Below, in pieces: positions 4,172-24,571 of a stretch of 50,426 nt of DNA. The notes beneath the pieces are model-generated. The model was not told where the DNA came from. It was given only the letters and a program-made list of their open reading frames with translations, and ran no database searches. Every line of letters starts with the position of its first letter. Within the stretch, counting starts at the first letter, position 1. This stretch comes from a virus. The stretch spans positions 1 to 50,426 of the IMG/VR virus record IMGVR_UViG_3300030101_004733. The stretch is one strand, 5' to 3'. A program made the translations under genes and the position numbers.

Positions 4172-6545
4172 TTTTATTTTTCATATTTAAACTTTGAGTT
4201 GTCATTTTATCGTACTGAACTTCTGCTCTTTTATCAGCTATATCATAATCTTTTTGTATTCTAGCTTGGTCTATTGCTGTTTTTTGTTTTAATCTTTCAG
4301 CATCTAATTGAATTCTAGCTTGATCTCTTTGAGAGTCCATTTGATCTTTTTGTGCGTCTTGTTGTAGTTCTTGTTGTTTTAATTGTATAGCTGGATCAGG
4401 TTGTCCTCCTCCAGAAAGTTGTTGAGATGCTTGTTTTAGTTCTCCCATAAACTGAGCCTCTAATCTAGCAATGGCTTGATCCATGTCCTCTTCGGGAAGC
4501 TGTCCTTGACTGACTAAGAAAGCAGTTTGTTCTTTTGCTTTTAAAGATATATGTTCCAAAATATGTTTTTGAAGTTTCATAGCCATAGGAGGATTAGCCA
4601 ATATCATTTGATTGGTTCCAAAGATTAAATGATTTTGAATATGTGCATCATGATCTTGACCTTCATAAACTTGCAATAAGTTACCGTCCAGTAAATCTGC
4701 ATGTTCTGTAGCAGGATCTTTAGGAGCGACAGGAGAGTCTTTTCTTAAAATTTCGTCCACATCTTTAATACCTAAAGCTTCATACATTCTTCTATAAGCT
4801 TCTTTCATGTTATGTAAATCAGGTGCACTTTGAGCTAATTGTAATTCTGTTTGAGCTAATGTTACTCTTTGTGTGGTAGAAAAAATATTAGGATCAGCAA
4901 CAGGTAGTACATCTAAACTACCGTCAAAATCTTCTGCTTTAATTGTTCTATCTGCTCCTTCAACCGAGTAAGGATAAGTTTCAGGTAAATAATCAGCAAA
5001 CACATTGTACAGTAATTTAAATTCTTTTCTTTGAGAATAATAGCAACGCTTATGTATAGCTGACATAATTTTAGAACCACGTTCTAATAAAGCAATTGTA
5101 GTTCCAACAGGAGCATTTTGATTTCCATCTCCCACTTGCATGTCTGCAATGCTAGCAAATCTTTGACCCGCTTGAACGACAAAACCTAAAAGACTGTAAA
5201 GAGTTTGTGAAGGTTCTTTGTAAGGAAGAGGTATTAATGAGTTTCTTAAATCACCATTAGGTGCGTCTATGTCTCTAAACTCACCTGGTTGAATAGGATC
5301 TGCATCATCTCTAATTCTTATTCCTCTAGATTTAAATCCTGCTGGTAGATTAGATAAAGTTCCTGCATCAATTAATTGTCTTAAAAGATCCGTAGCAGTT
5401 CTTGATAATCCACCAATCATGTGAATTAAACCAAAACCATAAAACCCTAGGCCAGGTAGAAACTTATATTGAACAAAATATTGTTTCTTCATTTTTTTAG
5501 GATCATCTTTTTCGTAGTTTCTTCTAATACCTACTACTTTTGTTGAACCTTCTTCAATCGTAACTATGTAAGGAATTTTTATTCCTGTCATCTCTCCTGA
5601 GTCATCTTTATCTTCGAAATCTTGTAAATCTAATGAAGTGTGAAACTCATATAATTTTATAACCTTATCTGCATAGCTAGGTTTCTGCCCATCCAATTCA
5701 TTATATTTTTCTTTGACTCTGTCTGCTTCTGCCTCTTGAGGTAAAATATCTACATCTTTATAAAAACCAGAAACTTGTTTTTTTCTAAAATCATTATAGC
5801 TCATGTTAATCACATGACACATTCTCTCGCAGCTATCTAAATCTGTTGCCAAATAGTTAACAACTAAATCTTCTGCTGGAACAAACTTAGAAACAGGTCT
5901 ATCCATTAACTCATCGTAGTAAACTTTTTTAAATGTCGATCCTGCTAAAGGTAAATAAAATAACATCTGATCATACTCAGGAGTATAATCTTCCATTTTA
6001 TTCATTAACTGAAAATTCATAAACTCTTGAACACGTCCAGCTCTTGCATACTTTTCAGGACTTTCGTCTCCCATAATAATTGTTCTTACTGGGCCACCAG
6101 ATGGTAACAATTCTTTAAATGCAGTTGCTTGAAATTGTGTAGCACTTTCTGCTAACAAAGGGTGGGTAGCTCCACTGGCTCCTCTAAATGGATTAGACCT
6201 TTCTTCATACTTCAGTCCTAGTAATCCTAAACCCTTAACATAAGCGTCTTCCCAATCTTTACGTGAAGACTTATCGCTTTCAAAGTCTCCCATAAGTTCG
6301 TCAGACAAAGTTTCTAAATCTCTATCATCAATAACTTCTGCTAAATTAGAATAAAATTCTATTTCAGGTAAAGCTTCTTTTGGATCAAAGTCTAAAGTTG
6401 CTCCACCGTCATCGTCCATTTGAATTTCTAATCCTTCGGGAGCCGGAACTCGTTGTCCATCAACCACAACTTCCGTTTCTTTTTTTAAAATTTCAAGTTC
6501 AGGTTTACCGCCTAGGTTTAAAGCTTTGTCTATATTATCTACCAT
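4158..6545 (-). CDS. Portal protein (head-tail connector)
   Basis: A 795-residue protein with an acidic N-terminal region and a block typical of podovirus-type portals: KDWEDAYVKGLGLLGLKYE, then NPFRGASGATHPLLAE and MLFYLPLAGSTFKKVYYD. A long Gln/Asp/Lys-rich helical tail (residues about 690-795) would form the crown or barrel. Twelve copies would form the ring through which DNA is packaged and ejected. It lies downstream of TerS, TerL and the 757-residue gene, in the usual packaging-to-head order. The length is at the long end for portals because of the C-terminal coiled region. Confidence 0.8.
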   Translation of the reverse strand: MVDNIDKALNLGGKPELEILKKETEVVVDGQRVPAPEGLEIQMDDDGGATLDFDPKEALPEIEFYSNLAEVIDDRDLETLSDELMGDFESDKSSRKDWEDAYVKGLGLLGLKYEERSNPFRGASGATHPLLAESATQFQATAFKELLPSGGPVRTIIMGDESPEKYARAGRVQEFMNFQLMNKMEDYTPEYDQMLFYLPLAGSTFKKVYYDELMDRPVSKFVPAEDLVVNYLATDLDSCERMCHVINMSYNDFRKKQVSGFYKDVDILPQEAEADRVKEKYNELDGQKPSYADKVIKLYEFHTSLDLQDFEDKDDSGEMTGIKIPYIVTIEEGSTKVVGIRRNYEKDDPKKMKKQYFVQYKFLPGLGFYGFGLIHMIGGLSRTATDLLRQLIDAGTLSNLPAGFKSRGIRIRDDADPIQPGEFRDIDAPNGDLRNSLIPLPYKEPSQTLYSLLGFVVQAGQRFASIADMQVGDGNQNAPVGTTIALLERGSKIMSAIHKRCYYSQRKEFKLLYNVFADYLPETYPYSVEGADRTIKAEDFDGSLDVLPVADPNIFSTTQRVTLAQTELQLAQSAPDLHNMKEAYRRMYEALGIKDVDEILRKDSPVAPKDPATEHADLLDGNLLQVYEGQDHDAHIQNHLIFGTNQMILANPPMAMKLQKHILEHISLKAKEQTAFLVSQGQLPEEDMDQAIARLEAQFMGELKQASQQLSGGGQPDPAIQLKQQELQQDAQKDQMDSQRDQARIQLDAERLKQKTAIDQARIQKDYDIADKRAEVQYDKMTTQSLNMKNKNASK

Positions 6546-6573: not shown

Positions 6574-8847
6574 TTACAACATGTCTATTTTAGGTAAAGG
6601 CATTACGTATCCGCCTTTTCTTTTTTTATCTACGCTTTTTCCTTTTGCTTTTTCGATTTGCGATCCGAAGAAGTCCGTAAGTTTTTCGAGGTAATCACCG
6701 ATATCGGACCAGCTTTTAAGCGGACTAATTGTTCCGGCTTCGTCGCTAAAGTACCTTTTATAACTCTCACCATTTTTATCTACCTTCCAGTCGTTTCTTA
6801 ATTTCTCTAATTCTATCTCTGATATAGTATATTGTACAGAAAAATCAAGATCATTAGTAAGATCAGGAAAAGTGTTTTCCAAGAAATCTTGTATGTAAGG
6901 AATTACATCTGCTTTTTTTAAAGGAGAGTTTTTAATCGCCTCTTTATCCACAATAATTCTGATACCATCATTTCCATCCATTGTTTCAATTGGCTGATAT
7001 CCTCTAAATATTCCATTGGGATCATTTGTTACAAAAAATTCAAAAAACTTTTTTAAAGTATCACTATCTCTTAGATTACTTGTGCCCTCTTCAACTAAAT
7101 CTATACCAATATTTTTAGGGTTTTTTGTTAATTCTTTTGCTGAATTAACCCATACTTCTGTTTGGTTTAATAAATATCCCAACATCGCTCCAGCTTTTCT
7201 TGCATTTTCTTTTGATGAGAAAGTTTGTTCTACTGTGGACGGATTTTGATAAAGCTCCCATCCTCCCGTGCCATGAACGACACCAGAAAGATTTGTTCCA
7301 AAAACTTCATTAACCATTTTAATCGCTTCAGCAGTAACATCGTTATTTATTTTTTCTTGTTTAGTGACAGGTAACTCTGAGTAGTCTTCACTAAACTCTA
7401 ACTGCCAAGGTGACCCATCTCCCGGAGCCACTTCCATAGAAATTCTTCTCAAGTTTCTTGTCATGGCCATTGATACATCTCCACTGGTTCCTAACTCACC
7501 TGTAAAGTCTGTTAGGTTCATCCATCCTATGGCCTGAATCTCAGCAGGTTTCCAGTCGGATTTACCTTGCCACTCAATGCTGTTTAAATAATCTGTTAAC
7601 TCTCTTCCAAACATAGCTCTATTTTCATATTTGGTTCCTGTAATACCTCCCTCACTTATGTCAATTTTAATTCCTTCTGGTATTTCATATCCTAATTTTT
7701 TTAATTTATTTAAATAAGTTTTATCAACTAATCCCATATCTCTAGCGGTGTGTATATCTACCACAAAAGGAGCTCCTCCAGCTTCATCATTTCCCATTAT
7801 GGATCTGACGTCTTTGTCATACCCAGCGTCTATAAAATCAGAAATTTTTTGTCCGACACCTTTTGTTACTTTTTTTTCAAAAAGAATATCTTTGATAACT
7901 TGGTTAGCCATGGGTAATCCTTTTCCTTTTATTTCGGTGTAAGGCACTCCTTGCTGCATTTGCTCGTAAATAAACAAAGTATTAGTTAAAGCACTGGTAG
8001 GTGTTTCGTTCTGTTGCCCTGATAACCAAGCAGTGGCTAACTTATCTCTTTCCGCTTTGTCACCAGCTCCAATAGAATCGAACTCATCAAAAATTTTCTT
8101 ATACCAATTAGCAGCGTTAAGTATTTGCTCTTTATTCATTGTTGAATCAATTCTGTTTTTCCAATCATCAAATTCAATATTACCAATTGCTATATCAGGT
8201 AAATTAGTTCCAGGGGCTTTCAAGACTATTCTTTCGTTTTGTGGTCCTCCAGGGTAAGAGTCTACTTTTCCTTCTTTTATTTTTTTAATTCTATCTGTAT
8301 GTAGTCTTAAATTGTTTTCTGTTTTATCATCAGGAAAGTTTATGCCTCCGATAAAATCAGTAAGCCCTTCTACGGTTACATCAGTGTAAATAGAATCAGA
8401 TAAGGTTTGTTTTGATTCTGTGAAACCTACATCTTCTACTTTAGTTTTTTGTTCAGGAACATCCGGAGTAATTAAAGGCTCAGATTTTGTAGTTGTTTCT
8501 GGAGTGCTGATAATTTGTTCAATGGGAACTTCTGGAGGAAGAAAAATTTTTTTATTTAATTCCTCATTAAATTTATTTTCTGCTTCTATTTGATCTGCAT
8601 CAGGAGCATATAAAGGTCCAGCGGGTGTTTCTTGTATTCGACTAACAATCGATTGAATAGGAGTACCTGATAAAATATTTAGAATATCATCAAAAATTAT
8701 TTGATTGGAATTATAGGCATTCATGATTTTCTCTGCGTTTTGTGCTCCGACAGCACTAATCAACAAAGGGCCTACAATATTAGGATTAGTCGCTATTCTC
8801 TTTGTAATCTCTTTTCCAGCTAGTCCTGTTAAAAAAGGGTATACCAT
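6574..8847 (-). CDS. Large unknown protein between terminase and portal (757 aa)
   Basis: A 757-residue protein that starts with a hydrophobic, Gly-containing segment (residues 1-35), followed by an acidic Pro-rich linker (about 95-140). A globular central part includes GNDEAGGAPFVVDIHTARDM (about residues 350-370) and AEIQAIGWMNLTDF. The end is basic (KAKGKSVDKKRKGGYVMPL). The FVVDIHTARDMG segment looks like an enzyme active-site region, but I cannot name the family. Its ATG overlaps the TerS stop. A virion-borne enzyme or ejected protein is plausible; this is inference. Confidence 0.65.
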   Translation of the reverse strand: MVYPFLTGLAGKEITKRIATNPNIVGPLLISAVGAQNAEKIMNAYNSNQIIFDDILNILSGTPIQSIVSRIQETPAGPLYAPDADQIEAENKFNEELNKKIFLPPEVPIEQIISTPETTTKSEPLITPDVPEQKTKVEDVGFTESKQTLSDSIYTDVTVEGLTDFIGGINFPDDKTENNLRLHTDRIKKIKEGKVDSYPGGPQNERIVLKAPGTNLPDIAIGNIEFDDWKNRIDSTMNKEQILNAANWYKKIFDEFDSIGAGDKAERDKLATAWLSGQQNETPTSALTNTLFIYEQMQQGVPYTEIKGKGLPMANQVIKDILFEKKVTKGVGQKISDFIDAGYDKDVRSIMGNDEAGGAPFVVDIHTARDMGLVDKTYLNKLKKLGYEIPEGIKIDISEGGITGTKYENRAMFGRELTDYLNSIEWQGKSDWKPAEIQAIGWMNLTDFTGELGTSGDVSMAMTRNLRRISMEVAPGDGSPWQLEFSEDYSELPVTKQEKINNDVTAEAIKMVNEVFGTNLSGVVHGTGGWELYQNPSTVEQTFSSKENARKAGAMLGYLLNQTEVWVNSAKELTKNPKNIGIDLVEEGTSNLRDSDTLKKFFEFFVTNDPNGIFRGYQPIETMDGNDGIRIIVDKEAIKNSPLKKADVIPYIQDFLENTFPDLTNDLDFSVQYTISEIELEKLRNDWKVDKNGESYKRYFSDEAGTISPLKSWSDIGDYLEKLTDFFGSQIEKAKGKSVDKKRKGGYVMPLPKIDML

Positions 8848-16357: not shown

Positions 16358-16384
16358 AAGGGGCTCGATAACTCGGGCCCTTTT
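16358..16384 (+). terminator. Probable intrinsic terminator of the array
   Basis: AAGGG..C and G..CCCTT arms around TCGATAACTCG-type loop sequence are followed by TTTT. The stem is imperfect but GC-rich and directly follows the last array gene. It separates the array from the next promoter at 16483. Confidence 0.5.
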
Positions 16385-16482
16385 AATAAAAATTGCATAT
16401 ATGTGTATATACGCACGTGCGAGGTTGAAAAAAAATAAAAATTACACATAACTATATTATGAAAAAAAATTTATTTTTTTTG

Positions 16483-16512
16483 TTGAATTTTTCGAGATTG
16501 TCTCGATATAGT
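16483..16512 (+). promoter_or_regulatory. Promoter with internal operator-like palindrome
   Basis: TTGAAT (16483-16488), an 18-base spacer and TATAGT (16507-16512). The spacer contains a perfect inverted repeat TCGAGA-TTG-TCTCGA (16492-16506), placed like a repressor operator between the -35 and -10 boxes. A start near 16520 would be just upstream of the folded RNA. Confidence 0.55.
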
Positions 16513-16526
16513 AAGTATAAGAAATA

Positions 16527-16740
16527 AAGAAAGACCTAGAATCAAACAAATTGCAATTTGTTTGTGAGCGCTCTGACTGAATAACGATTTTAAAACAGAG
16601 TCGTAAGGTATTGATCTTAGGAAGCATGGCCAAATGGCTGAGGGCCTAAGAGGTAAGTGCGAGTAGATGAGAAACTATCTGTTCTACCGAAAGTTGGGGG
16701 TAGCAAGTTCAAATCCCCTAAGCGCTTATAGGTCTTTCTT
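16527..16740 (+). ncRNA. Unrecognised structured RNA (about 214 nt)
   Basis: The ends AAGAAAGACCTA (16527-16538) and TAGGTCTTTCTT (16729-16740) form a perfect 12-bp stem. Inside, CAAACAAATTG/CAATTTGTTTG (16543-16564) is an 11-bp palindromic hairpin. TGAGCGCT (16565-16572) pairs with AGCGCTTA (16721-16728, one G-U), stacking directly on the outer stem to give a three-way junction. Further internal pairs include TCTTAGG/CCTAAGA (about 16614-16653). The tract GCCAAATGGCTGAGGGC resembles a class II tRNA D-arm and GTTCAAATC a T-loop, but no acceptor/anticodon fold fits. No protein frame is present. Confidence 0.65.
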
Positions 16741-16761
16741 CGTTTCAATAAAGGAGGCTAT

Positions 16762-16788
16762 ATGTTTATAGTTCTTGATCCATGGTAG
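16762..16788 (+). CDS. Eight-codon leader-type peptide ORF
   Basis: GGAGG (16753-16757) lies 4 bases before ATG; the frame reads MFIVLDPW and stops at TAG (16786-16788), inside the 5' arm of the following terminator stem. A ribosome translating or stalling here would cover the terminator. The layout is that of an attenuation leader; whether it is translated is unknown. Confidence 0.4.
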   Translation: MFIVLDPW

Positions 16789-16811
16789 CCCTCGGGCTAC
16801 CATTTTTTTTT
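16782..16811 (+). terminator. Intrinsic terminator after the structured RNA
   Basis: ATGGTAGCC (16782-16790), loop CTCG and GGCTACCAT (16795-16803) form a perfect 9-bp stem, followed by nine T (16803-16811). This is a textbook rho-independent terminator. An identical GGTAGC word at 16699-16704 in the upstream RNA could compete for GGCTACC and disrupt it. Confidence 0.8.
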
Positions 16812-16823: not shown

Positions 16824-16870
16824 AAACAATTTGTTATAATTAATCATAAAATGTTAGAAAGGAACAAACA

Positions 16871-17062
16871 ATGAATGATACAGAAGAATATTGGAAGAAT
16901 GAACACGGCAAGAGAAAAATGCAAATATTAAGCGATCTTGAAAAATATTTTAAAGTTAGAAATAAATCTAAAATTGAAATATTAAATCTAAGGTTTGATC
17001 ATGAAATAAAAAGACTTCAAACAGAACTACAAAATATAAATAACTTATTGGAGGTAATCTGA
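16871..17062 (+). CDS. Array gene 15: coiled-coil protein (63 aa)
   Basis: AGAAAGG precedes the ATG. The product is almost entirely helical and charged (LRFDHEIKRLQTELQNINNL), consistent with a short coiled coil. The stop overlaps the next ATG (TGATG). No family is recognised. Confidence 0.6.
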   Translation: MNDTEEYWKNEHGKRKMQILSDLEKYFKVRNKSKIEILNLRFDHEIKRLQTELQNINNLLEVI

Positions 17063-23011: not shown

Positions 23012-24571
23012 ATGAATTTAGAATTAGTACAAAAATTTAAAAATATTTTTACCGGTTTAGAGAGGGCTCATGGTGTATTTGAGAAATCAAATGAACCACA
23101 AAACGGTAAAAAAGTAGAGGCTAGGATGAAGACTGTCCACGAGCCGCCAACCATTGAAAAATTTGAATTACATCTTAAAGGCGAGTATCCGGGTATGGGT
23201 ATTGTTCCTATTAACGATGACAATGAGTGTTTGTTTGGTGCTATTGATATTGATGTCTATCCATTAGACCACAAAGCACTACAGAAAAAAATAAAAGATA
23301 AAAAATTTCCATTAGTAATGTGTTTATCAAAAAGTGGTGGAGCGCATTTATACATGTTTATGGAAAAAAAATTTACTGCAAAAGAAGTACAGTTAAAATT
23401 AAGTGAGATATCTACGGCTCTAGGTTATCCTAGTGCTGAAGTTTTTCCAAAACAAATAGAACTTTTCGTAAAAGAAGGTGAAGAAAAAAGAGATACGGGT
23501 AGTTGGATTAACTTACCTTATCATGGACGTAATAGATACGCGTTGAATGATGATGGTTCTGCGGCCTCTCTCGAAGAGTTTTTTAAACTACATGAAAAAT
23601 ATTTAGTTTCAGATTTAAAAAAAATTAAGACTAATTTTAAAAACGAAGTTATTAAAGATGGTCCACCATGTCTTCAAATTTTAACAGAAGACGGTATTAA
23701 TGAAGGTGGAAGAAACAATGCGCTATTTAATGTTGGGGTTTACTATCGTAAGTTTGATCCCGATAATTATAAAAATCTTATTGAGGACTATAATCGTCAG
23801 TATATTCAGCCTCCTTTAAAATCTGACGAGGTTTTAGTTGTCATTAAGCAGGTGTCTCAGTGCGATAGCAATGGGGCACCTAGGTACTCTTACAGATGTA
23901 CTCAGCCTCCTATTGAATCCCTCTGTAATAAGAGGCTCTGTAAGAAGAGAAAGTACGGGGTAGGTGGGGAAAACGACCGCGAACATCCTGTATACTCAGA
24001 TCTCAAAGTATACAAGTCCGATCCTCCTCGTTACTTTCTCAATGTTGATGATAGAAGAATAGAGTTACCCTCAACCGAAGATCTAATGACTCATAAAAAA
24101 GTTATTCAAGCTTGCATTGAACAATTAAACAAAGGCATACCAAACATGGCTCTTAATGATTGGAATCAATCATATACAGAGTTATTAGAAAATATTTCAA
24201 TTGATTATCCACCGGAGGAAGTAACAAAAAAAGGTGAGTTTAGAGAACTATTGGAAGAATTTATTTTACATCAAGGTGAAGCAGTTAGTATAGAAGATAT
24301 TTTTTTAGGAAAATCTTTTACTGAGGATGGTTTTACCTATTTTGCATTAAAAGATTTAATGGATCATTTGAAAAGAAATGATTTTAAAGAATCAAGATCA
24401 TGGGTAACAGTTAGGCTAAGAGAAGAATATGATGCGGAAGATTTAACTAGAAGAGTTAAGAAAGTAAAAGTTAGACTTTGGAAAATAAAAGAAATTTTAT
24501 CTGATGATGTAGAACTAGATGTTCCGGATATGAAAAGACCAGACGTTAATGAAGAGGACATACCGTTTTGA
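23012..24571 (+). CDS. AEP-superfamily primase (TOTE-type)
   Basis: The 519-residue product shows LFGAIDIDVYPL (catalytic Asp79 and Asp81) and CLSKSGGAHLYMFM (the SGGxH motif, His112), the two main active-site motifs of archaeo-eukaryotic primases in the TOTE-like branch. GSWINLPYHGRNRYAL follows. A Cys-containing segment (SYRCTQPPIESLCNKRLCKK, about residues 290-310) may bind zinc. The protein ends EEDIPF, an SSB-like C-terminal tail. It would prime replication for the phage polymerase. The stop overlaps the helicase start (TTGA). Confidence 0.8.
   Translation: MNLELVQKFKNIFTGLERAHGVFEKSNEPQNGKKVEARMKTVHEPPTIEKFELHLKGEYPGMGIVPINDDNECLFGAIDIDVYPLDHKALQKKIKDKKFPLVMCLSKSGGAHLYMFMEKKFTAKEVQLKLSEISTALGYPSAEVFPKQIELFVKEGEEKRDTGSWINLPYHGRNRYALNDDGSAASLEEFFKLHEKYLVSDLKKIKTNFKNEVIKDGPPCLQILTEDGINEGGRNNALFNVGVYYRKFDPDNYKNLIEDYNRQYIQPPLKSDEVLVVIKQVSQCDSNGAPRYSYRCTQPPIESLCNKRLCKKRKYGVGGENDREHPVYSDLKVYKSDPPRYFLNVDDRRIELPSTEDLMTHKKVIQACIEQLNKGIPNMALNDWNQSYTELLENISIDYPPEEVTKKGEFRELLEEFILHQGEAVSIEDIFLGKSFTEDGFTYFALKDLMDHLKRNDFKESRSWVTVRLREEYDAEDLTRRVKKVKVRLWKIKEILSDDVELDVPDMKRPDVNEEDIPF

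Follow-up and report, generated by a model that had tools for sequence, protein, structure and literature searches.

The window, i.e. the whole stretch of 50,426 bases analysed here, carries a tailed-phage gene set (terminase, portal, DNA polymerase, primase and helicase). Its DNA polymerase is ~52% identical to that of Pelagibacter phage HTVC023P and of two other phages, and a marine, SAR11-related host is plausible. The unit described below follows an operon that is closed by a terminator-like hairpin of its own (~16360-16385, from reading of the sequence). It comprises the following features, given together with the start signal of the next gene.

16483-16512, plus strand: sigma-70-type promoter, -35 TTGAAT, 18-nt spacer, -10 TATAGT (promoter scan; boxes conserved in relatives)
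16492-16506, no strand: spacer palindrome TCGAGATTGTCTCGA, exact once in the window
16521-16538, plus strand: 5' arm of the closing stem P0 (covariation)
16542-16565, plus strand: P1 hairpin (folding energy, covariation)
16551-16729, plus strand: manA-like RNA core, matching RF01745 positions 1-192 (covariance-model match, Rfam permissive mode)
16565-16572, plus strand: 5' arm of P2, partner 16721-16728 (sequence, covariation)
16574-16584, plus strand: UGACUGAAUAA, conserved family-wide (manA match, relatives)
16584-16604, plus strand: P3 hairpin (covariation)
16603-16609, plus strand: GUAAGGU, conserved family-wide (manA match, relatives)
16616-16650, plus strand: P4 hairpin, outer and inner stems (covariation)
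16696-16719, plus strand: P6 hairpin (covariation, 100% paired)
16721-16728, plus strand: 3' arm of P2 (sequence, covariation)
16729-16746, plus strand: 3' arm of P0 (covariation)
16750-16757, plus strand: strong Shine-Dalgarno (SD) sequence AAAGGAGG of the mini-ORF (sequence, relatives)
16756-16773, plus strand: predicted hairpin around the start codon of the mini-ORF (suggestive only)
16762-16788, plus strand: 8-codon mini-ORF MFIVLDPW*, UAG stop within the terminator stem (relatives, codon variation)
16782-16811, plus strand: intrinsic terminator, 9-bp stem (16782-16803) followed by a U-run (terminator scan)
16832-16840, plus strand: extended -10 TGTTATAAT of the next gene, 16871-17062 (sequence reading)

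The promoter agrees with the consensus at 9 of 12 positions, and matches this good are not rare by chance. Its boxes are kept in the relatives as TTGAATTTTT...CGATATAGT (or ATTAT). The palindrome in the spacer is retained only by a minority (the window, L194 and L003), and is not regarded as a defining part of the unit since so few relatives have it; some of the phages may use it as an operator. In L040 and L196 the spacer palindrome reads CGGG...CCCG, with both sides changed. At the other end, the scan found one terminator, in respect to 0.2 expected in shuffled sequences. The extended -10 downstream was not flagged by the promoter scan, and the same motif is found downstream in L192 and L196. 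An earlier note on this DNA had described a promoter with a spacer palindrome and a perfect terminator at 16483-16811, all of which are present; its proposal of a self-contained transcription unit with a structured RNA is supported, and the boundaries are conserved in relatives. A self-contained transcript is quite probably made from this locus.

The folding energy of 16483-16811 corresponds to z = -6.2, with none of 100 shuffled sequences as stable. A structure of 54 pairs was scored on an alignment (A1) of 18 close relatives, in which we looked for paired arms that diverge without compensation, named in the earlier note as the observation that would speak against the fold. The cells are 99.0% paired, and compensating changes on both sides occur at 22 of the 54 pairs. 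The cells changed on both sides number 98 (28.5 in shuffles), of which only 0–6 remain when the partners are slid by 1–3 columns. P0 spans 18 positions, one of them an A.C mismatch, and the perfect closing stem recognized before is its inner 12 bp; 17 of its pairs were counted, 7 of them changed on both sides, and 99.7% are paired. P1 is a 22-nt palindrome which had been read as an 11-bp hairpin: the palindrome is there, but physically it forms a 9-bp stem capped by a UGCA loop. P2 has 8 bp in the window, with both-side changes in 4 of the 7 counted pairs, and forms with P0 and P1 the three-way junction already described. P4 is 100% paired and shows both-side changes in 5 of 10 pairs. Within the multi-branch structure covariation backs P1–P4 and P6, with P5 less certain on the A1 alignment. 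In the folded part, where the earlier note saw no fitting protein frame, the longest stop-free stretch is 31 codons on the plus strand and 52 on the minus strand.

AT-rich DNA yields many weak hairpins, and the promoter match by itself is at chance level, as would be expected if this AT-rich intergenic sequence folded by chance or without function. This explanation is contradicted by the covariation, the homology described below and the folding z of -6.2, and we consider it extremely improbable. As the earlier note held, the stems are beyond chance; the covariation in 18 relatives leads us to the same view of the fold as a whole, and the locus almost certainly specifies a structured, conserved RNA.

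ARAGORN and the Rfam models detect no tRNA or tmRNA in the window, in agreement with the earlier exclusion of both classes. A tRNA-like reading (GGAAGCATGGCCAAATGGCTGAGGGC, GUUCAAAUC) was rejected, as the T-arm-like hairpin and the acceptor misfit and are not kept in relatives. The Rfam scan suggested in the earlier note returns no match in the window at gathering level; in permissive mode the manA model (RF01745) matches over its full length (1–192), with 23 bits (E 8e-4 in 601 nt). This is less than the gathering score of 55.2 bits for RF01745, for which reason we speak of a divergent homologue and not of a formal Rfam member. The closest relatives score 20–39 bits against the same model, also at full length. 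The two family-wide motifs, UGACUGAAUAA and GUAAGGU, flank the P3 hairpin and are exact in the window.

Relatives were sought by the pattern TGACTGAATAA...GTAAGGT, which gave 87 stretches in viral contigs, and further scans widened the close clade. Sister loci score 124, 122, 112, 67, 63, 52, 47, 45, 43, 38, 32, 28 and 24 bits against the manA model. They form a graded phage series: the cyanophage type stands at the top with 124 bits, further loci score in the 60s, 40s and 30s, and the lowest in the 20s. Almost all of these matches span the full model. In searches of whole records, manA matches were obtained in 26 of 30 and in 29 of 48 phage records, as a single copy in each matching record except G052 (the record behind L086), where two manA RNAs lie in tandem, a few nt apart (23035-23204 and 23209-23396). 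The model has no match in 14 control genomes, and one scan of bacterial genomes gave 96 matches at pattern level only. There is no detectable manA in Pelagibacter phages HTVC023P and HTVC027P and in two further phages whose DNA polymerases are nearest. DNA searches of phage isolates, for which the window RNA and further RNAs served as queries, returned the cyanophage group only, or nothing. The statement that the RNA could be assigned to no known family is superseded, with the manA model matching the full RNA and the relatives bridging to the high-scoring cyanophage manA. Homology of the window RNA to the manA family is highly likely. Comparison among relatives demonstrates the fold, the manA homology and the conservation of the unit's boundaries.

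In respect to the manA motif (RF01745; PMC2864571), the window RNA shares the full-length model match, the identical UGACUGAAUAA and GUAAGGU, the same helix order and the marine-phage carriers. It differs by its score (23 bits, gathering 55.2), the extra long closing stem P0, its own promoter and terminator, the lack of a clear 5' UTR position and an appended mini-ORF. The manA motif was presented as a riboswitch candidate by Weinberg et al. 2010 (PMC2864571), and Rfam types it as Cis-reg. The window RNA lacks a 5' UTR position, as the terminator separates it from the next gene. We have counted the surroundings of 61 non-redundant manA loci, accepting an ORF only if preceded by an SD. Such an ORF lies within 70 nt of the RNA (<=70 nt) at 15 loci and 70–150 nt away at 5; a terminator is met first at 19 (14 of them of the window's own clade), a tRNA gene adjoins at 3, and none of these is found within 150 nt at the remaining 19. 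The neighboring genes are unrelated (pstS, talC, gp23, tRNA, small ORFs).

In L075 a tmRNA, tRNA-Ala, manA and tRNA-Asn follow in this order with 1-nt gaps, and in L064 and L088 manA stands between tRNA-Thr and tRNA-Asn. That manA lies beside tRNAs and bears a low-scoring resemblance to a cloverleaf was remarked on in 2013 (PMC3692125). The array of L075, a marine phage contig, begins with a tRNA-Thr and runs head to tail over 7904-8551; its tmRNA also matches the Rfam permuted tmRNA model. In the cyanophage isolates manA is found behind a TTGACA-type promoter sequence of its own. It forms promoter-manA-terminator units in S-SSM4 and P-RSM1, and is followed by tRNA-Gly in S-SSM7 and by talC in P-TIM40. 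All four resemble the window in the core RNA and the upstream promoter-like sequence, S-SSM4 and P-RSM1 in the terminator as well; unlike the window they have no mini-ORF, and their sequence is near the high-scoring cyanophage type. In S-SSM7 an annotated hypothetical protein (SSSM7_180; L218:1556-1687) lies atop the manA RNA and overlaps tRNA-Gly; it is probably a spurious gene call.

Among the relatives that lack the mini-ORF, the closing stem continues into a U-run or U-rich stretch in L200 and L215, and promoter-like sequences of their own precede the next genes in L199, L206, L217 and L215; the RNA of L215 is flanked by two promoters, and its closing stem runs into a U-run. Closing stems that enter U-runs, together with promoter-like sequences of the next genes, favour an RNA made for itself, and the distribution as a whole suggests that 'manA' RNAs are often independent RNA genes. 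Eight loci (L005, L008, L013, L045, L048, L057, L065 and L074) belong to one manA subtype with constant boundaries, AAGTTTCGTG ... GCGAAT, and differing flanks and genes on both sides, as if it were a mobile module. A further contig with a manA RNA, L066, contains two matches to Type II hammerhead ribozymes (5296-5358 and 6231-6294).

Between the fold and the terminator lies a conserved mini-ORF at 16762-16788, overlooked in the earlier reading (ATG TTT ATA GTT CTT GAT CCA TGG TAG). A mini-ORF of 8–10 codons is present in 23 contigs, the window included, in the versions MFIVLDPW, MFVVLDPW, M(L/I/V)(I/V)IVLDPW, MIVIVIDDW, MLIIVFDDW and MIIIIDLDYW. Among 13 distinct nine-codon versions, codons 2–8 vary at 7 of 7 third positions, 4 of 7 first positions and 1 of 7 second positions; lengths differ by whole codons. 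The end is always W-UAG, with the UAG in the left arm of the terminator. A search with the peptide pattern found it only alongside the window-type RNA, except for two matches to LDPW-UAG (L226 and L227), rejected as unrelated sequence. Judged from this coding-like variation, the mini-ORF is probably translated. For every version folding predicts a hairpin at the start codon; against synonymous-codon controls the fractions are 0.03–0.45 for energy and 0.09–0.58 for stem length, so that it is suggestive and only weakly beyond chance. In L196 (2366-2678) the RNA belongs to one subclade and the mini-ORF and terminator behind it to another, which points to an exchange of RNA and mini-ORF as cassettes.

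The coding-like variation and the strict W-UAG ending in 23 contigs might also mean that the peptide of 8–10 residues is the product that matters, with the RNA mainly as its 5' UTR and stabiliser. The same fold without a mini-ORF in L199, L200, L206, L215 and L217, the other manA groups inspected, in which no mini-ORF was seen, and the conservation of the RNA core make this reading improbable.

The position of the stop codon offers a possible role for the mini-ORF. When a translated frame stops only a few bases from an intrinsic terminator, termination falls from ~90% to under 10% (PMC4824070), and the geometry in the window is closer still, with the UAG inside the stem. A ribosome finishing the mini-ORF would hinder the terminator hairpin, so that translation would gate the 3' end: a short free RNA at little translation, and read-through at active translation. 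Read-through would directly reach the next gene in 13 relatives, which have a weak U-run and a gene close behind (the stem, then only TTTTCATT or TTTTTCATT, then the SD of the next gene). The contigs with a strong U-run, including the window, have a promoter-like sequence for the following gene itself, or carry that gene on the opposite strand; in the window little would be gained from read-through, as a separate promoter seems to serve the next gene. Gating of the terminator by mini-ORF translation is a tentative proposal, to which we give slightly less than even weight.

The window has an attenuator-like geometry, i.e. a leader ORF with coding-like variation and a stop within a predicted intrinsic terminator. 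The pyrBI-type translation-coupled attenuators (PMC4824070) are similar in that a ribosome near the terminator would block the hairpin; in the window a large structured RNA precedes, and the gating is a prediction. The Mbox of the M. tuberculosis pe20 leader (PMC12810186) likewise combines a structured RNA with a conserved small ORF behind it that is linked to transcription termination. It differs in being a known Mg2+ sensor, Rho-dependent and without sequence relation, whereas the mini-ORF here has 8–10 codons and its stop inside an intrinsic terminator.

The preferred description is that of a phage gene which stands by itself and specifies a structured RNA, a divergent manA homologue. Transcription from the promoter (16483-16512) to the terminator (16782-16811) would give an RNA of ~290 nt, predicted to fold into the P0-closed three-way junction (P0, P1, P2) that leads to the manA multi-branch core, where P2 encloses P3, P4 and the less certain P5, as well as P6. 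The folded part would act in trans as an RNA or an RNP, and its most likely target would be the machinery of translation or one related to tRNA; this role is proposed because relatives belong to tRNA/tmRNA arrays of phages or have a promoter and terminator of their own. The self-contained units, the arrays, the single copies and the unrelated neighbors point to a free RNA. An autonomous phage ncRNA gene, probably trans-acting, with a terminator gated by the mini-ORF in this clade, is our best reading, held at about even confidence; the main action of the core in trans is itself evenly balanced, and the translation machinery in particular as its target is possible, with appreciably less confidence.

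About one manA locus in four has the placement of a 5' UTR element, which keeps a cis role for part of the family in play. In a cis-acting, riboswitch-like leader, as proposed for manA by Weinberg et al. 2010, the core would sense a metabolite or other signal and set the access to the mini-ORF SD, and mini-ORF and terminator would then set the downstream operon. Such a leader is in keeping with the standing of manA as a riboswitch candidate (PMC2864571), the 15 of 61 loci with an SD-preceded ORF <=70 nt away and the 13 relatives with a gene right behind a weak terminator, and has a precedent in the M. tuberculosis Mbox, a riboswitch controlling a small upstream ORF (PMC12810186). The predicted SD accessibility also drops in 18 of 18 sequences once the 5' arm of P0 is removed, a weak hint that the fold could govern the mini-ORF; the result is weak because the freed pyrimidine-rich arm is expected to mask any purine-rich SD. 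Most family loci have no gene directly behind the RNA, some have their own terminator or lie between tRNA genes 1 nt apart, and the neighbors (from pstS to small ORFs) are unrelated. On balance, we regard a cis leader as rather unlikely.

No ligand of manA is named in the literature found, where it has been a riboswitch candidate since 2010, and cyanophage papers still class it as cis-regulatory; neither did we find there a description of an autonomous form with P0, mini-ORF and a stop in the terminator. The RNA family is known, and this autonomous form would be a new variant of it. That manA is a free RNA would explain the absence of a common regulated gene. In a broader and rather doubtful extension, manA-family RNAs, whether made from independent genes or cut out of tRNA/tmRNA arrays, would act in trans on the translation apparatus of the host, and in the mini-ORF clade the 3' end would sense translation. 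A mini-ORF whose stop lies in the terminator is a concrete, testable regulatory device, and the cultured cyanophages with a stand-alone manA render the question of action in trans testable.
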